This document shows, piece by piece, positions 44,783 to 55,084 of a stretch of 55,084 bases of DNA. Position numbers and translations under genes: made by a program. The notes beneath the pieces were generated by a model, which was not told the DNA's origin, did not search any database, and saw only the letters and a program-made list of their open reading frames with translations. The DNA lies in assembly GCA_014879535.1 (NCBI GenBank), contig JACSRX010000067.1, forward strand, positions 1 to 55,084. The letters are read 5' to 3'. The stretch is from Chthoniobacterales bacterium (GTDB lineage: Bacteria; Verrucomicrobiota; Verrucomicrobiia; Chthoniobacterales; JACTMZ01). Position 1 is the first letter of the stretch. The number at the start of each line of letters is the position of its first letter.

Positions 44783-47572
44783 TCAGACCCGGAAGACCTT
44801 CATGACTTCGTCGCCGAGGTGGTTGATGACTTTCACGGCGATGCGGCCGCTCTTGGGCTTCTCGAAGGGACGTGAGGTGTCGCTGTGGAGCGTGGACCAC
44901 GCTTCGGCGTCGATCTCCGCCTTCAAGGTCGTCTTGAGCGCGTTGTAGGGATCGTTCTGGCCGAGGAAGTAGGCGTGGCGGACGAAGAAGCTCTCTTCGT
45001 TGTAGTCGGTGTCGAGAAACCAGCAGGCGATGCCGTCGGCATTGCAGGATTCCACCTCGCCGGTCTGCGGCTTGAAGACGTCCACGCCCCGGACCTTCAC
45101 GCGGAGGCGGCCGTCTTTCTCGTTGAGCAGCTCGATGTCCGGCTCGCCGAAGATGACGAAGAGGTTGCCTTTGCCGGTGTTTTTGAGGTCCTCCGCCATG
45201 TGCAGGTCGGCATTCATGCGGGCCTTGAGCACGGGGAGTTTGCCCAGCTTGTTGAACTCCGTGGTGTGGGCCTCGTAGTTGAAGGCGCAGGCGATCAGCA
45301 CATCAAACCCGGCTTCCCCGGCCTCGCGGGCGGCGGCGGCGAGGTCGGCACGCTGGACGGTGCCGAACTCGGGACCAATGAAGATGGCGGCACGCTTCTC
45401 CATCTCGCCTTCGAGATAGCGACCTTCGCCGCAGACCAGCTGGCCGGGCCACGCCGTGAGGGAAAGGAAGTTGATGCGGTCCTGCTTGTCCGCCTGCTGC
45501 ACCCCGGCCGTCTTGAGATTCTCCAGGATGAGCTGGGGAAAGGACTGCTTGGCGTTGTAGTCGGCCGATTCCTCCTTGAGCGAGTCGATGAGCTCGTCAT
45601 TCTCATCCACGCCCAACACGCGGTGCGGGCTGAGGCTCTCGACGGTGAAGGGACCGGCCACGCGGACCTTCTTCCTGTCCTCGTAGGGCTTGTCGTAGAG
45701 GTATTCAAACTCCGCCTTGGCGGCGATGGAGGCGTCGATTTCCTTCTGCCGGGCGATGCGCGCCTGCCACCAATCGGCGTGCAGCTTCTTCGCGGGCTCC
45801 GGCCACGCCTTGTCCGCCTCGCGCGGAATCTCCCACTCCGGCCATTGCTGCTTGAGCGCGGCGTTCAGCTTCTCGCGCAGCGGCTCCAGCGTCTGCTGCC
45901 ACTTGTCCCAGATCACATCGATCTCGGCGTTGTTGGCGATGGATTTGAGGGTGATGTGCGGCACGCGCTCATAGACGAAGCCGTGGCGGATGTTGCCGTG
46001 GACGGGCTGGCTGCTCGGCGCAGTGCGGGTGACTTCGGCTTCCTTGATCTGGCCCTCGCGGGAATCGGCCAGCAGGTAAAAGGGATAACGCGCGCCCATG
46101 ATGCGGGCGCGGGCCAGCGCCAGCGCCACGCGGGAGGTGTCGATGGTGATCCAGCGGCGGCCCCATTGCTCGGCGACGGTGGCCGTGGTGCCGGAACCGC
46201 AGGTCGGGTCGAGCACGAGGTCACCGGGGTCGGTGGCCATGAGAAGGCAGCGTTCGATAGCTCTCGTGCTGGTCTGGACTACATAAATCAAACCGGTTCC
46301 AAGTTGGACCGATTCCCATCGGTCGGCGATCGGTAGAACGGCGAAGTCATCTACCTTCCTCATGAATTGCAGTGTGCTCGCCGGGGCATACAAACGTCCA
46401 GAAAGGCCAAGGCGTTTCATGCCCGAGTAGTTAGTCTTGAAGGTTCCCGCTCCTGCCGTAAACGCGCGGCCTTGGAAGTCGAAAGACTTCATATCACCTT
46501 CGCCAGATGGGCGAGCACTGGAGAGCGCCGTCAAGCGGGCTCGTGAGAAGCCTTCGCCAACATTCGCGCTGCCAGCTTCGTTGGCAGTTATCCGCCGCAC
46601 TCTGCCAGCCTCGTCCATTACGAGGTCATATCTATCCAAGGAAGGAGTGCCGGCTTGGCGGTCCAGATAGAGCTGCCTGTATTTCACCAAGTTCCTATTC
46701 TTCGCGTAGAACAGAATGTAATCGACGGTTTGCGGCAGCAACGCTTGGTCAGTCGAACCTGTTTTCTGGAAGCTGATTGTTGCGACGTGGTTTTCATCCC
46801 CGAACACCTCATCCATCGCCGCGCGGACGCGGTGAACATTTTCATCCCCAATCTGCACGAAGATGGAGCCGGAGTCGGTGAGGAGGTCGCGGGCGACGGT
46901 GAGACGGTCGCGCAGGTAGGTGAGGTAGCTGTGGATGCCGTCGCGCCAGGTGTCGCGGAAGGCTTTGACCTGCTCGGGCTCGCGGGTGATGTGGCCGGCG
47001 TTGCCGTCCTTCACGTCGCGGCTGGTGGTGGACCACTGGAAGTTGCTGTTGAATTTGATGCCGTAGGGCGGGTCGAAGTAGATGCACTGCACCTTGCCGC
47101 GCAGCCCCTCGCGCTCGGCGAGACTCGCCATGACCTGCAAGGAGTCGCCGAGGATCATGCGGTTGCTCCAGTTCTGGTCGTGCTGGTAGAACTCGGTCTT
47201 GTCCACGCCCTTGGGGATACCGTTGAAGTCGGCAAAAAGGTCGGGCGTGAGGAGCCCGTCGTCATGCTGCTTCTCCCGCGTCTGCCGCAAGAGGTCGTCG
47301 ATGAGGGCCTTGGGATGGACCTTTTCCTGGATGTAGAGCGGCGGGGCGTGGACGACCAACTCGCTCCAGTCCTGTTCATCCTTCCCGCGCCAGACGAGCT
47401 GCGGGTCGAGGTCGGCATTCCGCGGGTAGCGAAGCCTCCGCGGCTGCTCGATCTCCTTCTGCAGAATCGACTGCTGCTCGGCGCTGGGGATGTTCTTCCG
47501 CGTGGCCTCGGTGTGCTTGATGGCTTCGACGGATTTGGGGGCGGCTGGTTTCTTGGGCATGGCGGTGTTCAC
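44783..47572 (-). CDS. Type III-like DNA adenine methyltransferase (Mod)
   Basis: 929 residues. The beta-class order is seen: motif IV DPPY (IYFDPPYGIKF, residues 167-170) comes first, then the target-recognition region (about 257-437), and then the SAM motif I (DPTCGSGTT, about 452-460). It should methylate adenine N6 in one strand of its recognition site. The C-terminal 400 residues are a large domain typical of this helicase-associated group. The GTG start at 47572 overlaps the NYN stop; ATG at 47560 is an alternative. The recognition region (46260-46800) has lower GC than the rest of the gene, about 45-50 percent by hand count. Confidence 0.9.
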   Translation of the reverse strand: MNTAMPKKPAAPKSVEAIKHTEATRKNIPSAEQQSILQKEIEQPRRLRYPRNADLDPQLVWRGKDEQDWSELVVHAPPLYIQEKVHPKALIDDLLRQTREKQHDDGLLTPDLFADFNGIPKGVDKTEFYQHDQNWSNRMILGDSLQVMASLAEREGLRGKVQCIYFDPPYGIKFNSNFQWSTTSRDVKDGNAGHITREPEQVKAFRDTWRDGIHSYLTYLRDRLTVARDLLTDSGSIFVQIGDENVHRVRAAMDEVFGDENHVATISFQKTGSTDQALLPQTVDYILFYAKNRNLVKYRQLYLDRQAGTPSLDRYDLVMDEAGRVRRITANEAGSANVGEGFSRARLTALSSARPSGEGDMKSFDFQGRAFTAGAGTFKTNYSGMKRLGLSGRLYAPASTLQFMRKVDDFAVLPIADRWESVQLGTGLIYVVQTSTRAIERCLLMATDPGDLVLDPTCGSGTTATVAEQWGRRWITIDTSRVALALARARIMGARYPFYLLADSREGQIKEAEVTRTAPSSQPVHGNIRHGFVYERVPHITLKSIANNAEIDVIWDKWQQTLEPLREKLNAALKQQWPEWEIPREADKAWPEPAKKLHADWWQARIARQKEIDASIAAKAEFEYLYDKPYEDRKKVRVAGPFTVESLSPHRVLGVDENDELIDSLKEESADYNAKQSFPQLILENLKTAGVQQADKQDRINFLSLTAWPGQLVCGEGRYLEGEMEKRAAIFIGPEFGTVQRADLAAAAREAGEAGFDVLIACAFNYEAHTTEFNKLGKLPVLKARMNADLHMAEDLKNTGKGNLFVIFGEPDIELLNEKDGRLRVKVRGVDVFKPQTGEVESCNADGIACWFLDTDYNEESFFVRHAYFLGQNDPYNALKTTLKAEIDAEAWSTLHSDTSRPFEKPKSGRIAVKVINHLGDEVMKVFRV

Positions 47573-48186
47573 CAGGTGGGAGGCTTGTGGAAGGTGCCTT
47601 GGGAGTCGGTGAGGGAGTCGGGGAATTGCGATGCCTCAAGGACGCCACGGCGGATTTGCTTGTAGAAATCGACTTCGGGTTGGAGGGCGTAGCTGAGGCG
47701 CTTCTGGGGGTTGATCAGGCCGACCGTTTTCCGGAACCGGCGCCGCACGATGCGGATGGGTTCAAGCAGGTCGGAGTCGTTCGAGAGAACGACAGCGCAC
47801 TCCATGGCGTCGTCGAAGGCATCGAGGAGCAGGGCCACGGCGAGGTTCACATCGGAGCCTTTCTCCTCGGTCTTGAGCACATCAACCTTCACGGGCGGGG
47901 TGCCCAGCGGGAAGAGGGGCATCTTCTTCACGCTCTGCAGAAATGCCCCGAGCTGGATATCCAACTCCGGCAGCGTGCGCAGCGCCCGCAGGTAGGTGTG
48001 CTGACGCGTGGATTTGTCCGGGTCCATGGGATCGGGTTTGATGAGCGCGGAGAAATAGCGGATGCGAAGGATGTCGTGCCCCGGGAGGAGGGCCTTGGCA
48101 ATGGCGCGGGGGTCCACCCACCGGATGCCGAACCGGCGCATCCCGTAGTAGAAATTGAAACCATCGATGTAGAGGATGGTCTTCAT
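47569..48186 (-). CDS. NYN-domain (PIN-like) protein within the RM operon
   Basis: 205 residues. The start MKTILYIDGFNFYYG holds D8 and N11 of the NYN nuclease fold. KGSDVNLAVALLLDAF (D112) and VVLSNDSDLLEPI (D137, D139) complete the acidic site. NYN proteins of the LabA/DUF88 type are putative RNases. It lies between res and mod, and its stop overlaps the mod start (GTGA). No ribosome-binding sequence precedes the ATG; instead a hairpin with a U-run lies directly before it. A regulatory or toxic RNase role is possible. Confidence 0.88.
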   Translation of the reverse strand: MKTILYIDGFNFYYGMRRFGIRWVDPRAIAKALLPGHDILRIRYFSALIKPDPMDPDKSTRQHTYLRALRTLPELDIQLGAFLQSVKKMPLFPLGTPPVKVDVLKTEEKGSDVNLAVALLLDAFDDAMECAVVLSNDSDLLEPIRIVRRRFRKTVGLINPQKRLSYALQPEVDFYKQIRRGVLEASQFPDSLTDSQGTFHKPPTW

Positions 48187-48189
48187 GCC

Positions 48190-48224
48190 AAAAAGCAGGG
48201 GCCGCGCCTTGCGGCAACGGCCCC
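48190..48224 (-). terminator. Terminator-like hairpin directly upstream of the NYN start
   Basis: On the minus strand GGGGCCG and CGGCCCC (48224-48218 and 48204-48198) pair around a GC-rich loop. TGCTTTTT (T run at 48194-48190) follows, 3 bases before the ATG at 48186. It could end res transcription or act as an attenuator in the NYN-mod leader. Confidence 0.65.
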
Positions 48225-48263
48225 GCGTCCTTTCGCCGAAGCTACTCGGAGGGATGATTCAGC

Positions 48264-48292
48264 AATATTTGCGAGGAACCCTTGTCCGTCAA
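48264..48292 (-). promoter_or_regulatory. Promoter for NYN-mod
   Basis: Minus-strand TTGACG (48292-48287), exactly 17 bases, then AATATT (48269-48264). The predicted start near 48257 gives a 70-nt leader that contains the hairpin described above. Confidence 0.6.
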
Positions 48293-48439
48293 GGCACGAA
48301 AACGCCCGAGCGGTGCCGGTCTTTGTCGATCGCCGGCGAGGCAGCAACCGCAAAGCAAGAAAGCCCCAGGACCTCGGTGCATGCTCCGGATCGGCGAGCG
48401 GACCTGCCATCAAGGGGCGGATATCGGAAAAATGGGGCA

Positions 48440-51400
48440 TCAGCGTGATCCTGCAGGCGGATTTTTCGTCGTGGCTTGGGTGACCATCTGGTTGAAGTGC
48501 TGCTCGACCTTCGTAGCGAAGTCGGACTCGATCTCGTAAACGTCGCAGAACTCGGCGAAGGCCCAGCGGCCGTAGGTGCCGAGGTGGTTGACCCCGGGGA
48601 TCCAGTAGGAATTCATGGTGGAGGCCTTGATCTTCGCGTCCTCCCGCCGGTAGCCCTTGATCTCCACGACCAGATGCAGGAGATCGGGAGAGCCGTCCGG
48701 CTTCGGCGGCCGGCCGTCATCGACCAGAACGATGAAATCCGGGAGGTATCGGCGGTTTTCCCCGGCCATCTGGTAGGGCACTTCGAGTCCGAGGTTCTGG
48801 TTCTTCACGTAGGCGCGGACCTTGGGATGCGACTCGGCCACGCGGCAAAACTCGGCCTCCCAATCGCTGTCGAGGATGACCCAGTTGATGTGGCACTTCC
48901 CGGCATTGGTCTCCCAGCGGTCCGTCTTCGAGGTGTTGAAACGGACATGGCGGGTCGAGCCGGTGGGGTTGTAGGGATCGAGGAGGGCCTTGATGGGATT
49001 TTCGCCGACCAACGCGGACGTGATGCCCGCGGTGATGCGCTCGCAGGCGAGGTCGGCCAGCTCCTGATACATGAGCTGGGCGGGGTAGGTGCCGCCCTTG
49101 CAGACGAGGCAGGTGTCGAGCCATTCCTTGGTGATGCGCTTGAGTTGGCCGAACAGGTGCAGCTTCGGGGCATCGCCGGGATCGCGCCACTTGGTGTAGA
49201 GCAGGCGCTGGGTGAGATGGTAAACGAGGGCCGAGGGCCGGAGGTCGCCGAGGTGGTCCACGGTGAGGTCCACGCCTTGACCGATGATGCCTTCGTTGCG
49301 GTTCTTGGTGGGGCCGGTGAGCTCGGGCGTGAGGGTGAGGATGTGGTCCTCGCCGAATTTCGCGGAAAGTTGCTCCTCGGGCAGTTCCACGCGGTAACCC
49401 TCGACTCGCGGGAAGCGGATCTCCAGAGCATCACGTTCCGGCCTCACCGCCTTGACCTGGATGACCTCGCGCGGCTTCTGCGGCGGGGAGATGACAGGCT
49501 TGGCCGTGAAGTCGAAGGGAATGCCCAGCACGTCCGCATATTCCACGTTGAACAGGCCGTCTTCGTTCAGGTCGTAGGATTGGCGACGCAGGGCACGGCC
49601 GATGACCTGCTCACAGAGCAGCTGCGTGCCGAAGGCGCGGACACCGAGGACGTGGGTCACCGTGCTGGCATCCCAGCCTTCGGTCAGCATGGAGACAGAA
49701 ACCACGCACCGGACGTTGCCGCCCAAGGCGCCGTGCTTGCCCACGGTGTTCATGACCTCGCGCAGCAAATCCTGATCGGACAGGTTCTCCCCGGCGTGTG
49801 CGTCGCCGCTGCGCTCGACCAATTCGCGGCGGAACCGCTCGATTTCGTCCGCGGCCATGTGGCGGAAATTGTCATCCAAGGCCTCGCCCGACTCGAGCTG
49901 CGCGCTGTCGATGAGAAGCGTGTTCGGCCGCGGCAGCGGCTGGTTGTGTTCGTCGAAGTTGCGGAACAAGGGAAGGCGTCCGTTCTCCAAGACCTTCCCG
50001 CCGCCATCCTGCTGACGGAAGAAGCCGGAGACGTAGTCGTAAACGAGCTTCGAGATGGCGGTGTTCTGGCAGACGATGATGAAGCAGGGCGGAACGCGGA
50101 TGCCGGCCTCCTCCCACAGCGCGTAGGTCTTGGCGTAGTGCCCGTAGAGGGCCTGCAAGGCGGTCTGGAGAAGCGCGGGAAGCTTGAGCGGATCGAGGTC
50201 CTCGCCGGCACTGCGGCTCTTCTTCGGCATCTTCGTCCGGATGTGCGTCCAGAGATCGCGAAACATCGGCATCTGGTCGTCTGAGGCCCCCGGAAGGTTC
50301 TGCGCCACGGGGACGCGGGGCAGCTTGACGATTCCGCACTCGATCGCATCCATGAGCGAGAAATCGCTCATGGTCCAAGGGAACATCGTGCCCTCGACAT
50401 AGCCGGAGCCCGCGAGGAAAAACGGCGTGGCGGAAAGATCCAGCACGCGGGAGACGCCGAGCTTGCGGTTCACCGCCTCCAAGCCGGAGATCCACAGGCG
50501 CGCCGCCTCCTTGTTTTTCTCCGCCTCCTTCTTCTCGTCACCCTTGAGATCGTCGGTTGGCTCCAAGGCTTCGCCGGGCTTTTCGCGGTAGCAATGGTGG
50601 GCCTCGTCATTCATGACGAAAATGTTCTTCAGCCCCATCAGGTCCGGCATGACGCGTTGCAGCATCTGGCCTTCGGTTTCCGTGGTGAGGATGTCGTCGC
50701 CGGTGCGGCCCTTGAGAAGTTGGCGCCCGCCCTTGGACAGCTCCATGCGCTCCCGCAACTTGAAGGCGTGATAGTTGGTGATGACGATCTTGGCGCGACG
50801 GACGTCCTCCAAGAGGTCGGCCGGAACCAGCTCGCGGGTGCTGTAGTAGTTGTCCGGGTCGTTCGGCTGAAGAACGCGCAGGCGGTCGCGAATCGTGAGT
50901 CCGGGGGCGACGATGAGGAATCCCCGGGAGAAGTGTCTGCTGCCGGGGCGACGGACGGCGTTGATCGTCTGCCAGGCGATGAGCATGGCCATCACGGTTG
51001 TCTTGCCCGCACCGGTCGCGAGCTTCAGGGCCAAGCGGTTGAGCTCGGGGTTTGCCTCTTTGTTGGCCTGAGTCAGGTGGTCCAAGATGCGCTTGCCCGC
51101 GCTGGTGTGCGGCGCAACTTCCGTGAGCCAGATCGCGGTCTCGACGGCCTCCACCTGGCAGAAGAATGGGCGCTGGTTGCTGAATGAATGATGCCGCCAA
51201 TGTTGCAGGAGACGGGCGGTTTCCGGCGTCACTTGCCACTGGCTTGCGTTTGGCAAAGAGCGCCATGTGTCCACCAAGCTGCGAACCTCGTTGATGATCG
51301 AAGTCGGGTCATATTGTTGCTCCTCGGAGGATAGCCCCTTCCCCTCGTCGAAAATGATCTCCTGCTGTGCGGCGGAACGATGGCGCTTCTTCGGCTTGGG

Positions 51401-51541
51401 GATGGGAGTGATGAACTCCGCCCGCCTGCGCTCAGGTATCACCCTCTGTGTCGGGTGCCCAACGCTATCCAATTCCCAATGCCTTTGAGGATACTCGTAG
51501 GGAGAGTTGAGAATAGGGCGATCGAAAAAAGGGTTACTCAC
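48440..51541 (-). CDS. Type III-like restriction enzyme, helicase-nuclease (Res)
   Basis: About 1033 residues. A SF2 helicase core shows LKLATGAGKTTVMAML (Walker A), MNDEAHHC (motif II), LDLSATPFFLAG (motif III) and CEQVIGRALRRQ (motif VI). The C-terminal PD-(D/E)xK nuclease reads YLPDFIVLVDDG and VVEIKGYR. The N-terminus MSNPFFDRPILNSPYEYP resembles the BPTD_3080-type restriction endonucleases as I recall them. The GTG at 51541 fits that N-terminus; the longer frame begins with an unsupported TTG at 51655. The first part of the gene is lower in GC. It is separated from NYN-mod by 253 bp. Confidence 0.9.
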   Translation of the reverse strand: MSNPFFDRPILNSPYEYPQRHWELDSVGHPTQRVIPERRRAEFITPIPKPKKRHRSAAQQEIIFDEGKGLSSEEQQYDPTSIINEVRSLVDTWRSLPNASQWQVTPETARLLQHWRHHSFSNQRPFFCQVEAVETAIWLTEVAPHTSAGKRILDHLTQANKEANPELNRLALKLATGAGKTTVMAMLIAWQTINAVRRPGSRHFSRGFLIVAPGLTIRDRLRVLQPNDPDNYYSTRELVPADLLEDVRRAKIVITNYHAFKLRERMELSKGGRQLLKGRTGDDILTTETEGQMLQRVMPDLMGLKNIFVMNDEAHHCYREKPGEALEPTDDLKGDEKKEAEKNKEAARLWISGLEAVNRKLGVSRVLDLSATPFFLAGSGYVEGTMFPWTMSDFSLMDAIECGIVKLPRVPVAQNLPGASDDQMPMFRDLWTHIRTKMPKKSRSAGEDLDPLKLPALLQTALQALYGHYAKTYALWEEAGIRVPPCFIIVCQNTAISKLVYDYVSGFFRQQDGGGKVLENGRLPLFRNFDEHNQPLPRPNTLLIDSAQLESGEALDDNFRHMAADEIERFRRELVERSGDAHAGENLSDQDLLREVMNTVGKHGALGGNVRCVVSVSMLTEGWDASTVTHVLGVRAFGTQLLCEQVIGRALRRQSYDLNEDGLFNVEYADVLGIPFDFTAKPVISPPQKPREVIQVKAVRPERDALEIRFPRVEGYRVELPEEQLSAKFGEDHILTLTPELTGPTKNRNEGIIGQGVDLTVDHLGDLRPSALVYHLTQRLLYTKWRDPGDAPKLHLFGQLKRITKEWLDTCLVCKGGTYPAQLMYQELADLACERITAGITSALVGENPIKALLDPYNPTGSTRHVRFNTSKTDRWETNAGKCHINWVILDSDWEAEFCRVAESHPKVRAYVKNQNLGLEVPYQMAGENRRYLPDFIVLVDDGRPPKPDGSPDLLHLVVEIKGYRREDAKIKASTMNSYWIPGVNHLGTYGRWAFAEFCDVYEIESDFATKVEQHFNQMVTQATTKNPPAGSR

Positions 51542-51740
51542 GGTGGAAGCGTCAGCGAATCGGAGGAGTCTCTCGTATTCCAAAGCATTGTCCGATGGCA
51601 AATCGAGATCATTGGTAAGGCGCCTTTGGGGACAGAAGCAACATGAGGCGCGCAAATCACGAATCGCGCAAGCCCAAGCGTCTTTTTATGACGCAGAAAG
51701 TTCGTTGGTCTGCGGTCGGCCGTTGGCAGTGTTCAGATGG

Positions 51741-51784: not shown

Positions 51785-52552
51785 TCACCAGTATTCGACG
51801 AGGCGGTAGAAGGCGCGCTTCTTCAAGCCGATGGGATGATAGAACTCGCGTCCGATTGCGGCGCCGTCCCACCAGGAGGCGATGGTTTGCCATTGGTCGG
51901 TGGCCAGGTCCTCGCAGACTTGGAGGTCGCAGGAGAGGTTGAGGCGTGTGGTGAACGCGATCCTGGCGTTTGTTGCGCCCACGGACAGCGCCAGAGCCGG
52001 CGGGGCTTGGGCGCGGAAGGTGACGGTTTTCAGCGGGCTCGGCGTGCGCTGTGCGGCTTCATCCACGGCGCGGAAGGTGACGGTGTAGGTTCCTTCGCGG
52101 TCGGTGGTGAAGGCGCGGCCGTGAAGGTGTCCGTAGCCGGTGGTGGGATCTTCGTAAACAACGATGGCCGGGCGGTCGTCCCCGGCGGCGGTCCAACCGG
52201 TGGGACGGCTCCATGTCGGGGAGGATGTGCCGGCTTCCCAGAATGAAAAGCTGCCCCCGGCGGGACCGCTCACGGAAACCAGCTCGATGCGGACGAGTGA
52301 CCCGGCGGCGAAATCGAGGGCGTTGGTTTCCGTGCTGAACGTGAGCTCGCAGGCGAAGCTGCCGCCGGGGAAGTCGGGGAAGTAGCCACTGAACGGCTCC
52401 CCGCGCGGCACCCAGAGGGCAAGCTGGAAGGCGGGGCCTTCCATGAACAATTGCGAGGGATCGCCGGGATTTTCCCCGATTTCGATGTGGTCGTGGGCGC
52501 TGGCTGCGGTCAGCAGCGCGAGCAGGAGGAGGGGGAAGAGGATTTGTTTCAT
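51785..52552 (-). CDS. Secreted HDH protein, all3515-like
   Basis: 255 residues. The signal peptide (LFPLLLLALLTAASA) is followed at once by HDHIEIGENPGDP, a His-rich start that suggests metal binding. Further on GYGHLHGRAFTTDREGTYTV and LTFSTETNALDF look like a secreted beta-sandwich. The pattern recalls the cyanobacterial all3515-type Zur-regulated PEP-CTERM proteins, but without a sorting tail. This is memory, not a search. The ATG at 52552 overlaps the pseudopilin stop (ATGA), so they are coupled. Confidence 0.75.
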   Translation of the reverse strand: MKQILFPLLLLALLTAASAHDHIEIGENPGDPSQLFMEGPAFQLALWVPRGEPFSGYFPDFPGGSFACELTFSTETNALDFAAGSLVRIELVSVSGPAGGSFSFWEAGTSSPTWSRPTGWTAAGDDRPAIVVYEDPTTGYGHLHGRAFTTDREGTYTVTFRAVDEAAQRTPSPLKTVTFRAQAPPALALSVGATNARIAFTTRLNLSCDLQVCEDLATDQWQTIASWWDGAAIGREFYHPIGLKKRAFYRLVEYW

Positions 52553-53181
52553 GGTTGGATGAACGGGGTGGCGGAAGACATCAGGCGTGTCTGGACATCG
52601 GACCATGCGAGGTTTTCGGCGTGGCCGTCGGCGAAGAGGTAATTCGCCCCGCGTCCGTGGCATTCGACGTTGACCATCGAGCGGAAGAAGGACGGGGTGA
52701 CGACACCGCGGGACGCGCCGCGGAAATGGAAGTGTTCGCTGGTCTGGTTGGTGGCGAGTTCGCCGAGGACCATGGTGTTGTTCGGCGCACGGCAGCGGGC
52801 GAGCGGGATGCCGGCGCCGTTGGTTTCCGTGAGGAGATCGTTCCAGCCGTAGGTGATGCGGGAGCGATGGTCGGGCACGGCCGGGCAGCGCCCGAGGAAG
52901 TTCGTGCCGAGATAGGCCGAAAGGGTGCTGGTCCAAGACAGGGACGAGCCGTCGGCCGCGCGCAGGTGGCTGCTGGAAGGCAGCCGCCCGTTGTTGTCCC
53001 CCGCATGCATCTGCATCGCCGCGCCGACCTGGCGCATGGATTGCAGGCATTTCGTGGACTGCGCGCGGTCGAGGCCCCCGCCGACGGCCGCGATGGCGAT
53101 CATCGTGAGCAGGGCCATGATGGCCGTTGCCACGAGGATTTCGATCAGCGTGAAGCCGTGATGCCGTGGACCAGCGATCAT
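52549..53181 (-). CDS. Type II secretion-like pseudopilin
   Basis: 210 residues. The prepilin peptidase site and N-terminal helix read GFTLIEILVATAIMALLTMI. The soluble domain ends in NYLFADGHAENLAWSDV, the FADGH motif common in Verrucomicrobia/Planctomycetes pseudopilin-like proteins. AAGGAAG before the ATG at 53181 is a good ribosome-binding sequence and lies inside the end of the PEP-CTERM gene. It lies one base after the stop of the PEP-CTERM gene. No other secretion genes are nearby, so its role here is unclear. Confidence 0.85.
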   Translation of the reverse strand: MIAGPRHHGFTLIEILVATAIMALLTMIAIAAVGGGLDRAQSTKCLQSMRQVGAAMQMHAGDNNGRLPSSSHLRAADGSSLSWTSTLSAYLGTNFLGRCPAVPDHRSRITYGWNDLLTETNGAGIPLARCRAPNNTMVLGELATNQTSEHFHFRGASRGVVTPSFFRSMVNVECHGRGANYLFADGHAENLAWSDVQTRLMSSATPFIQP

Positions 53182-53182
53182 C

Positions 53183-53989
53183 TTACTTCCTTGGGCAACG
53201 GCGCAGCAGGGTGGTTGCCGCGACACCGGTCAGGACCAGCGCCCATGTCGAGGGCTCGGGGACGACCGAGACGGTGGTGCTGATGCCGTAGGTCGGGTAG
53301 GTCGGACCGGTTTCGATTTCCTGAGAGGCGTAGTTCGCGCCGCCCACGAAGAGCGAGTAGTCGCCGGCGGCAAGGTTCTCGAAGAGATACGTGACGTAGC
53401 CGTCCGCATTGCCGTCCCCGTTGATGCCGGGGGCGTCCCCGTAGTTGGCCGGGGTTCCGTCCGCCGCATGGCCGATGTAGGTGAAATGCCGGAGGCTGGC
53501 CGGGTAGAGGATGCCGCTTCCGGGATCGCCGGAGACGACGTAGGTCGGGTCGTTGCCGACGGACCAGTCGGTGAGCGCGCGCAGCGAGCCTTCGGTGCCG
53601 ATCGGGCGGCTGTTCGTCGAGAGCGCCGCGGAGTCGTGGCTGCCCTGCTCGGGCGCCAGGTGGCCGAGCCCGAGGTAGAGCGAGAACGCCGGCAGGAAGA
53701 CGCCGTTGGTCCCGGTGCCCAGGGAGTTGCGCTCGACGGTGATGCTCACGGAAACCGTGTTGGTCAGCGTGAAGCGGAAGAACCGTCCGCGGTGGCTGTC
53801 GCCCCAATCGGTGTCGGTGGCATCCGCCCAGCCGAACGCGCTGCTGACGGTCTGGTTGCTGATGGTGAGCGAGACCGGGTTGGTCCCGAAGTCGCGTCCC
53901 CCATAGCCGATGTGGGCCGAAGCGGGGCGCGTGGTGAGGAGAAGGACGGTGACGGTGGTCACCGCAAGGAGATGGAATGGAATTTTCAT
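53183..53989 (-). CDS. PEP-CTERM sorting domain protein
   Basis: About 268 residues. The signal peptide (LLAVTTVTVLLLTTRPASA) leads into AHIGYGGRDFG and a beta-rich middle. The C-terminus has the full PEP-CTERM signal: VPEPSTWALVLTGVAATTLL, then a basic RRCPRK end. Such proteins are processed by an exosortase and attached to the surface or the extracellular polymer. Start may be the ATG at 53989 or at 54010. It is followed directly by the pseudopilin gene. Confidence 0.87.
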   Translation of the reverse strand: MKIPFHLLAVTTVTVLLLTTRPASAHIGYGGRDFGTNPVSLTISNQTVSSAFGWADATDTDWGDSHRGRFFRFTLTNTVSVSITVERNSLGTGTNGVFLPAFSLYLGLGHLAPEQGSHDSAALSTNSRPIGTEGSLRALTDWSVGNDPTYVVSGDPGSGILYPASLRHFTYIGHAADGTPANYGDAPGINGDGNADGYVTYLFENLAAGDYSLFVGGANYASQEIETGPTYPTYGISTTVSVVPEPSTWALVLTGVAATTLLRRCPRK

Positions 53990-54164
53990 GAAGATTTTTG
54001 AAACTGACATTGGTGTTGCGGGTGCATTCGCGGGGAATGCTTCCAGTTCCGCACACGCGGACTGGATGAGCGCAGGAGCATCGCCCGGGAGGTTTCCCCC
54101 GGCGCGGATGCATCAATCTGCGTTGGCATCACCGCCTCTGCGTGAGGCAGGGCGGCGTGTCGGG

Positions 54165-54563
54165 TCAGCCGACGATGGGGACGGGAACAGGAGGCGCCTC
54201 GTTGCGGGAGGACGCGAAGACATCACCGGGGTGCGGGTAGGAGAATCCGCCGCGCAGACGCGGGCCGATGCTCTCGGCAACGGGCAAGACGATCAGGTCG
54301 ATCCGCTTGGCGGCGTCCACGGATTTCACGGGATTGCTCTGGCTGCCGTGGGAGGCATCCTTGATGCGCGTGCAAAGTTTGCAGGGGTGCTCGCCGTCGA
54401 ACGTTTTGCGGGCGGCCTCGGCGACGGAGCTTTCCGAGGCCGAGTAGTTCCAGAGCATCGCGCCCCATGCGGTCACCTGCAGGGCGGCCAAGTGGGCGCC
54501 CGACCCGCAGGCCAGCACGGCGAGCAGGAGGATGGCAAGGAGGCGATGGAATCCAATCAGCAC
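54165..54563 (-). CDS. Small secreted HPCKLC protein (DUF2946-like)
   Basis: 132 residues. The signal peptide (LLAILLLAVLACGSGAHLAA) is followed by a GEHPCKLCTRIKDA motif, a possible metal-binding CxxC. The end is Pro rich (EAPPVPVPIVG). Small proteins of this kind often lie beside heavy-metal RND pumps, and this one follows the CusA-type gene by 58 bp. A GTG start at 54563 is used because no in-frame ATG exists nearby. A 150-bp stretch without a gene separates it from the PEP-CTERM gene. Confidence 0.7.
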   Translation of the reverse strand: MLIGFHRLLAILLLAVLACGSGAHLAALQVTAWGAMLWNYSASESSVAEAARKTFDGEHPCKLCTRIKDASHGSQSNPVKSVDAAKRIDLIVLPVAESIGPRLRGGFSYPHPGDVFASSRNEAPPVPVPIVG

Positions 54564-54621
54564 CGGCGCGGTTGATAGACCCCGCGAGAGGGTGGTGGCA
54601 ATGTTTTCTTTCCTCCCGATA

Positions 54622-55084
54622 TCAGTTCTTCCGTCCGAAAATCTCGCGCGAGCGCAACGCGTAGAAAATCACCGGGGTCACGATGAGGATGTGCAGGAGA
54701 CTGCTGACCATGCCGCCGATGACCGGGGTGGCGATGGGCTTCATGACTTCGGCGCCGGTCCGAGAGCTCCACATGATGGGCAGGAGGCTGGCGATCACGG
54801 TGGAAACCGTCATGACCTTGGGCCGCAGCCGCAGGAGCGCCCCCTCCTTGACCGCCGCCAGGAGGTCGGCGCGGGTGAAGCGATCACCGAGCTCCTTCAG
54901 CCTCCTTTGCAGGGCTTCCTCGAGGTAAACGACCATGACGACGCCCGTCTGGATGGCGGTGCCAAACAAGGCGATATAGCCGACCCAAACGGCGACGCTG
55001 AAGTTGTAGCCGAGGAGCCATTGCAGGAAGACGCCCCCCGTGAGGGCGAATGGCACGGCGAGGATGACATGTGACGCCTCCAGC
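54622..55084 (-). CDS. CusA-type heavy-metal efflux RND protein, C-terminal part (5' end outside window)
   Basis: About 154 residues are visible and the frame is open to the right edge ([17 protein letters not shown]...). The segment [20 protein letters not shown] and [20 protein letters not shown] is the CusA/CzcA end signature, with TM11-12 and a short tail. It exports monovalent or divalent metals through a CusBC-type system. The remaining genes of the system would lie outside the window. Confidence 0.92.

Follow-up and report, generated by a model that had tools for sequence, protein, structure and literature searches.

The complete contig JACSRX010000067.1 of a Chthoniobacterales genome (55,084 nucleotides (nt), C52 in our numbering; hereafter, the window) carries on its minus strand the end of cusA, a gene for a small protein with a CxxC motif, and the genes for a PEP-CTERM exoprotein, a pseudopilin and a secreted protein designated HDH, in this order. 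We conclude that the four genes after cusA probably form a copper-responsive operon for the handling of copper at the cell surface, with acquisition as the most likely purpose. In the proposed mechanism, the CxxC protein would act as a leader, the nascent exported chain of which would sense copper via the CxxC motif. Its proline-rich C-terminus would slow or arrest the ribosome and thereby control how strongly the genes past a structured leader RNA are expressed. The PEP-CTERM protein, with its predicted fold of the copper proteins CorA and MopE, would be exported by Sec and sorted by an exosortase, and, judging from this fold and from invariant histidines, it would bind copper outside of the cell together with the HDH protein, which begins with H-x-H. 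Copper scarcity read by the leader would lead to more surface copper binders, and the pseudopilin would help to place or move them. The direction of control is uncertain, as the analogy works both ways: CruR permits expression without copper, and CutF raises it with copper.

All five genes of the run, as read in the earlier note, were located on the minus strand in the order that it had claimed (Table 1), and the PEP-CTERM, pseudopilin and HDH genes abut or overlap, in line with the tight coupling that it had described. Synteny in relatives was also found. The order CxxC-PEP-pilin-HDH is kept at four loci of relatives (L023, L025, L026 and L027) and is divided between two contigs in genome G006. 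Because the order repeats in these relatives, the gene run is not due to chance. Among 57 relatives, the CxxC protein had matches in 38 and the HDH protein in 14, 6 of them with E values of 3.5e-65 or better. The PEP-CTERM protein also had matches in 14, of which 10 were at 1.8e-37 or better and the remaining ones mostly covered only the C-terminal part. A variant order, CxxC-pilin-HDH, was found at L028, L029 and L031-L033, where the HDH-type proteins mostly have a PEP-CTERM of their own, and the order at L034 is CxxC-pilin-HDH-PEP. Mutual matches of HDH and PEP-CTERM proteins in iterative hidden Markov models were judged to be profile drift and were not counted as homology.

For the CxxC protein, the best reading is that of a copper-sensing leader resembling CutF and CruR, encoded by an upstream open reading frame (uORF). 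CutF of Rhodobacter capsulatus and CruR of Bordetella pertussis (bp2923, DUF2946) are small exported proteins with a CxxC motif and a C-terminal proline motif, encoded upstream of genes for TonB receptors, SCO, PCuAC, CopC and Cus proteins (PMC9973294, PMC9426467). Arrest by CruR has been demonstrated in vitro (PMC12992588). The likeness to CruR extends to an Arg/Pro-Pro tail, a long gap and copper-related downstream genes for a TonB receptor, SCO, PCuAC and CopC. With the chosen start, a tentative GTG at 54563 upstream of which the open frame continues, the window leader agrees with the rules for CutF-like proteins given in PMC9973294. It has 132 amino acids (aa), fewer than 150, CxxC as a Cys/His metal motif and PP within the last 15 residues, and the PEP-CTERM gene follows on the same strand after 154 nt, within the limit of 1000 nt. 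In the alignment, the leader N-terminus is hydrophobic, and it may be a Sec signal peptide, which the same rules call for. The C-terminal tail reads RNEAPPVPVPIVG and ends with APPVPVPIVG. CutF-type nascent-chain copper sensors are listed mostly from Pseudomonadota and Bacteroidota in PMC9973294, and the string "Verrucomicrob" occurs 0 times in its main text; the leader family described here, in contrast, is found in the phylum of the window.

The family-wide statistics support a leader. At the loci examined, all 108 distinct members contained CxxC, and the length from CxxC to the end was nearly constant (69.5±5.6 aa). PP within the last 15 residues was present in 103 of the 108 members, compared with 65 of 1364 other genes (Fisher p 5e-106), although this count is not fully independent, since the tail is part of the profile used to find the family. 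The family is present in 71 of 288 genomes of the phylum, at 92 places, the best-scoring 41 of which, on 40 loci, were used as a phylum-wide set after five from the taxonomic order of the window had been left out. In this set, the next gene was on the same strand as the leader in 41/41 cases (other genes: 71/135), and the upstream neighbor in 19/33; the gap after the leader was never below 45 nt and was below 1000 nt in 38/41. Two further sets, which have genomes in common with each other, gave 36/37 and 34/35 for the next gene (other genes: 184/298 and 409/591).

SCO1, PCuAC, CopC, NosL and azurin have copper-related roles, and genes of this kind accompany the leader. We scanned 35 downstream proteins, namely those of 33 of the 41 first genes, eight short or doubtful ones being left out, and of two later genes. 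They included 17 TonB receptors, six Phenol_MetA_deg proteins, two SCO1 proteins (presumably encoded by the two later genes), two CCP_MauG proteins, one NosL and one protein with a prepilin motif. In nearer relatives, genes for SCO1-CusF, azurin, NosZ, CopC, PCuAC and TonB receptors adjoin the leader gene.

The RNA between the uORF and the next gene is more structured than expected. The fold of window positions 53990-54210 had -87.8 kcal/mol (z -3.54). It includes a strong GC hairpin, situated some 20 nt past the stop codon of the uORF, and lacks a U-run. No hairpin covering the downstream ribosome-binding site could be demonstrated in this fold, and no clear Shine-Dalgarno sequence precedes the PEP-CTERM start in the folded region. 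Gaps of 60-300 nt after leaders were more structured than control same-strand gaps (67 versus 110 gaps, median z -2.07 versus -0.82, p 4.7e-6). The excess of C over G after leaders was small (0.084 versus 0.048, p 0.0016) and would weakly suit Rho-dependent termination.

The PEP-CTERM protein is predicted to have the copper-protein fold of CorA and MopE. The AlphaFold2 model, built from 29 sequences, had a predicted local distance difference test score of 84.9. In a Foldseek search against the Protein Data Bank (PDB), the best matches were CorA (E 8e-9) and MopE (2e-8), followed by a match at 1e-3. With VIA-align, CorA reached a Z score of 15.0 (174/198 residues, root-mean-square deviation 3.3) and MopE 13.8, and the next match, with collagenase domains of about 100 residues, had 9.5. 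CorA was absent from the 50 best matches of the HDH model, which was run in the same way. According to PMC3912023, CorA of Methylomicrobium album is a surface protein that binds Cu(I), is repressible by copper and has Kyn62 (kynurenine), His64 and His114 at the copper, and the synthesis of both CorA and MopE of Methylococcus capsulatus is repressed by copper. The PEP-CTERM protein shares with them the predicted fold, the export and, at some loci, a nearby gene of the CCP_MauG class; it differs in having a PEP-CTERM signal, in lacking a sequence match and in being paired with a pseudopilin and an HDH protein. We found no literature joining PEP-CTERM with MopE among open-licence main texts, and an earlier description may exist elsewhere.

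The sorting signal of the PEP-CTERM protein lies at residues 250-272, approximately, and scored 22.5 bits with TIGR02595 (cut-off 16) and 19.7 bits with the Pfam PEP-CTERM model, under its cut-off of 20.7. The exosortase model TIGR02602 had four matches in the genome, two of them over the cut-off, and the protein thus combines the C-terminal signal of an exosortase substrate with an exosortase in the same genome. Invariant in all 29 sequences are A32-H33, Y36, W61, D66, D71, H73 and D126. One copy, at L169, contains only two histidines, which must correspond to H33 and H73, since both are invariant. If cleavage occurs after A32, a site chosen by eye, H33 would be the mature N-terminus.

The HDH protein has the motifs H20-D-H22, behind its signal-peptide-like N-terminus, and H142-x-H144-G-R; the family keeps A19-H20-x-H22 and H142-x-H144 in 10/10 proteins. 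Histidine braces are known from lytic polysaccharide monooxygenases and CopC, and amino-terminal copper and nickel (ATCUN) motifs are another type of copper(II) site. The PEP-CTERM and HDH proteins, unlike in fold, both start with His after Ala, which suggests histidine-brace or ATCUN sites for copper(II). The HDH protein is predicted to be mostly beta, and no C-terminal anchor was seen in it. Its only relevant match, to the choice-of-anchor M model NF038134 (E 7.6e-6, 26.1 bits), is below the curated cut-off of 55, and the same model matched 7 of the 10 HDH proteins at E ≤ 0.01. The pseudopilin scored over the cut-offs of two prepilin models (PF07963, 32.3 bits, cut-off 21.2; TIGR02532, 30.2 bits, cut-off 16.3) and contains an EHFHF motif. 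Its start is likelier the ATG at 53181, one base past the PEP-CTERM stop.

A genome scan for the PEP family yielded 68 loci, 23 proteobacterial and 45 others; L131, labelled "Proteobacteria", was counted among the 45, as it has the cassette and labels of metagenome bins may be wrong. Partners were counted with the profiles A4 and A5 and a two-round pilin profile. Among the 45 loci, a leader was found at most 5.2 kb upstream in 33, a pseudopilin nearby in 28 and an HDH-type gene in 20. The 23 proteobacterial loci had none of these three, and 10 had a TonB receptor. BLAST, used for TonB receptors in the 68 loci, missed a partial one in L116, a cassette locus with a siderophore-type receptor downstream, and its zero for the non-proteobacterial loci is therefore unreliable. 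In Nitrosovibrio (L178) and Nitrosospira (L130), a receptor gene lies two genes and one gene, respectively, from the PEP family, and its best match, below the cut-off, is the TonB-copper model TIGR01778 (E 1.1e-102 and 1.5e-100). CCP_MauG, the CorB-like class, matched beside or one gene from the PEP protein at 5/5 chosen loci (E 1.4e-7 to 0.0055, with some matches below the cut-off), recalling the corA-corB pair. The surface metal binding proposed in the earlier note is supported by the CorA/MopE fold and by the copper genes with which the leader travels, whereas metal export as the purpose is not, in view of the PEP relatives near TonB-copper receptors at the two loci.

Several observations weigh against a copper operon headed by such a leader. 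The DUF2946 profile of CruR matched 0/28 leader members at E ≤ 1, and the spacing from CxxC to PP is 54-63 in 36/38 members (mode 58), compared with 45 to RAPP in CruR; because of these two differences, the protein is called CutF/CruR-like and not a family member. The leader tail is of the type R-x-[DE]-A-P-P-V-P-V-P-I, and that of the window has RNEAPP, not RAPP. CorA-fold, pilin and HDH genes are not named for CruR in the available part of PMC9426467, and the CutF tail gave no stalling in a LepB reporter. The link to CorA is one of fold only, as the PEP profile A6 had 0 matches at E ≤ 10 against PDB chains. The CorA-type Trp/Kyn-x-His pair (W-x-H) is missing in 29/29 sequences, which have the invariant W61, H73 and H33 instead, and the HDH fold search gave only generic Ig/FN3 matches. 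The TIGR01778 scores in L178 and L130 (345 and 338 bits) are below the cut-off of 472, the hemin model outscores the TonB-copper model at four other proteobacterial loci, and a TonB receptor was found at only 2 of 11 Nitrosomonas, Nitrosospira and Nitrosovibrio loci. CCP_MauG was over the cut-off at only two of the five loci. Finally, zinc is hinted at by two neighbors of the cassette, a ZnuA gene following it in L083 and, in L025, an adjacent CobW-family gene.

If acquisition is the purpose, it might proceed independently of TonB. A tentative version of the copper operon, considerably less probable than the general reading, is that the leader switches on the CorA-fold exoprotein, with a histidine-brace-like pair of His33 and His73, the H-x-H exoprotein, and a metal-binding pseudopilin, with EHFHF, that would present or move them via a type II secretion-like machine. 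The window genome has seven matches to ATPases of the type II secretion/type IV pilus kind and no TonB receptor match, and a TonB receptor (PF00593) was found in 0/11 genomes of its genus g1 (G000-G010), which include incomplete drafts. Among genomes of the order, those with the cassette had a mean of 0.57 TonB receptors (n=21), compared with 3.53 in other genomes (n=17; p 0.0008 by genus). These groups were set by hand, 19 genomes without a leader were left out, genus g25 is in both groups, and three assignments are borderline (G001, with the run broken across contigs; G016, with no pilin seen; and G037, with a match below the cut-off). Relatedness confounds the comparison, so the lower receptor number is suggestive only. 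Nevertheless, this version gives a testable answer to the question of how copper could be collected by bacteria that lack TonB receptors. More generally, a separate leader family with CutF-type features in 71 of the 288 genomes of the phylum, often followed by TonB receptor or copper genes, can serve as a finder for new copper genes, and the leader-led group includes a PEP-CTERM family that has the predicted fold of methanotroph copper exoproteins and also occurs in ammonia oxidisers.

The neighborhood of cusA raises the alternative of copper detoxification, in which a CusAB-linked operon would sequester excess surface copper and would be induced by copper, just as CutF induces CutO; we consider this unlikely. 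The window and contig C42 of the same genome overlap by 69 bases, at the end of the former and the start of the latter, and C42 supplies the remainder of the cusA gene, which is complete across the overlap, and then cusB, so that the run could be extended past the window end as the earlier note had envisaged. In the window genome, cusBA lies directly upstream of the leader, cusA being separated from the leader gene by 58 nt. At L251, by eye, a member of the leader family stands at the head of a run that includes CusB- and CusA-like genes, and CutF raises CutO with copper (PMC9973294). However, CusA was found at only 1 of 17 related loci (L034 and L042 come from one genome), or at 1 of 9 when the count is limited to loci that extend 4 kb or more upstream of the leader gene. 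In addition, CorA and MopE synthesis is copper-repressed, and the genes most often found behind the leader family are those of TonB receptors, which belong to uptake. CusA was accordingly rejected as a conserved partner and as the system component that the earlier note had made of it. Because the cassette order recurs and CusA does not, cusBA beside the cassette is mostly local and the cassette itself is the unit. By eye, CusA-like genes near a leader also occur at L099, where they are divergent, and at L251.

A view that we rate as a little less likely again makes the CxxC protein a functional secreted copper chaperone, or an assembly factor, with the pilin and PEP-CTERM proteins as its clients; it is compatible with the other readings of the operon. 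The export-like N-terminus and the conserved CxxC would suit it. The PP tail, the near-constant length from CxxC to the end, the same-strand next gene in 41 of 41 cases, the structured gap and the diversity of the downstream genes fit a cis-acting leader better, and the protein looks like a sensor leader, not like a working secreted metal binder.

Least probable is that the cassette serves zinc acquisition as the verrucomicrobial equivalent of the system around ZepA (All3515), a zinc exoprotein repressed by Zur. CobW/COG0523 proteins are taken as a hint to zinc, and inspection by eye showed a further CobW-like gene in L128. ZepA (PMC10957091) belongs to the exported PEP-CTERM proteins and has His residues near its mature N-terminus, features shared with the cassette, but the fold described for it is different. 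The HDH proteins begin with H-x-H. Against zinc, the all3515 model NF040463 was over its cut-off in 0/288 genomes of the phylum, with weak matches in three and none in the window genome, and the window HDH protein, which the earlier note had likened to all3515, had no match at E ≤ 1. A distant relative, L032, had a weak match in a C-terminal stretch (E 0.0031, 17.4 bits, cut-off 75). In four upstream regions, no Zur, CueR or CsoR pattern was better than 22 of 100 shuffles. The predicted copper-protein fold and the predominance of copper genes and TonB receptors among the leader neighbors also argue against it, and zinc was rejected as the main reading. Because of ZnuA in L083 and CobW in L025, however, the cassettes of some relatives may serve zinc.

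Some additional genes were observed around leaders and cassettes. At L078, L081, L084, L089, L093, L101 and L103, the genes behind the leader encode proteins with a CD[LV]CGC-type motif close to the N-terminus (CDLCAC in L103), possibly an unnamed copper-related family; the protein of L081 had no Pfam or NCBIfam match. At L239, L241 and L244 (genus g36, family f16), the genes behind the leader look sigma-factor-like by eye, and one of the 35 scanned downstream proteins, presumably from L239, matched sigma-70. At L075, L076 and L077, a leader and a second HDH-type gene are divergent from SCO1-CusF, azurin and NosZ genes, for which Pfam confirmation is limited to L075. Another secreted His-rich protein with a further pseudopilin is encoded convergently to the cassette on the minus strand of L023 (8516-9256) and L025 (10957-11649), and in L025 the CobW-family gene lies between these genes and the cassette. 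Two neighbor surveys, covering among others the L128 and L251 loci, named genes with drifted HDH and PEP profiles. At four proteobacterial loci (L151, L171, L174 and L177), short secreted proteins with a TTxxEPxTQP-like N-terminus occur with the PEP family and a TonB receptor; the copies scanned, from L151 and L171, have a PEP-CTERM.

Table 1. Positions of the features on the window.
Feature	Position	Strand	Remarks
CusA, C-terminal part (153 residues), interrupted by the contig end	54622..55084	-	ACR_tran E 2.3e-26; CusA/CzcA TIGR00914 E 1.3e-39
CutF/CruR-like leader (uORF), 132 aa	54165..54563	-	hydrophobic N-terminus; CxxC at residues 61-64
Structured leader RNA	54011..54164	-	from uORF stop to PEP-CTERM start
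PEP-CTERM exoprotein	53183..54010	-	predicted CorA/MopE fold
Pseudopilin	52549..53226	-	prepilin N-terminus; H-X9-DG-like C-terminus
HDH protein, 255 aa	51785..52552	-	secreted; signal-peptide-like N-terminus
Putative Res	48440-51655	-	sequence reading
NYN-like gene, 205 aa	47569-48186	-	sequence reading; between putative Mod and Res
Putative Mod	44783-47572	-	sequence reading

The run is followed downstream by three genes, a small one flanked by two large ones (44783-51655, minus strand), which we take to be, probably, genes of a type III restriction-modification system. On contig C42, a small secreted Cys/His-rich open reading frame (L003:4453-4815, minus strand), which ends with AHAPPPREKQRALQVWLI, lies just before cusB and is a candidate for a second CutF-like leader, of another type, ahead of cusBA.

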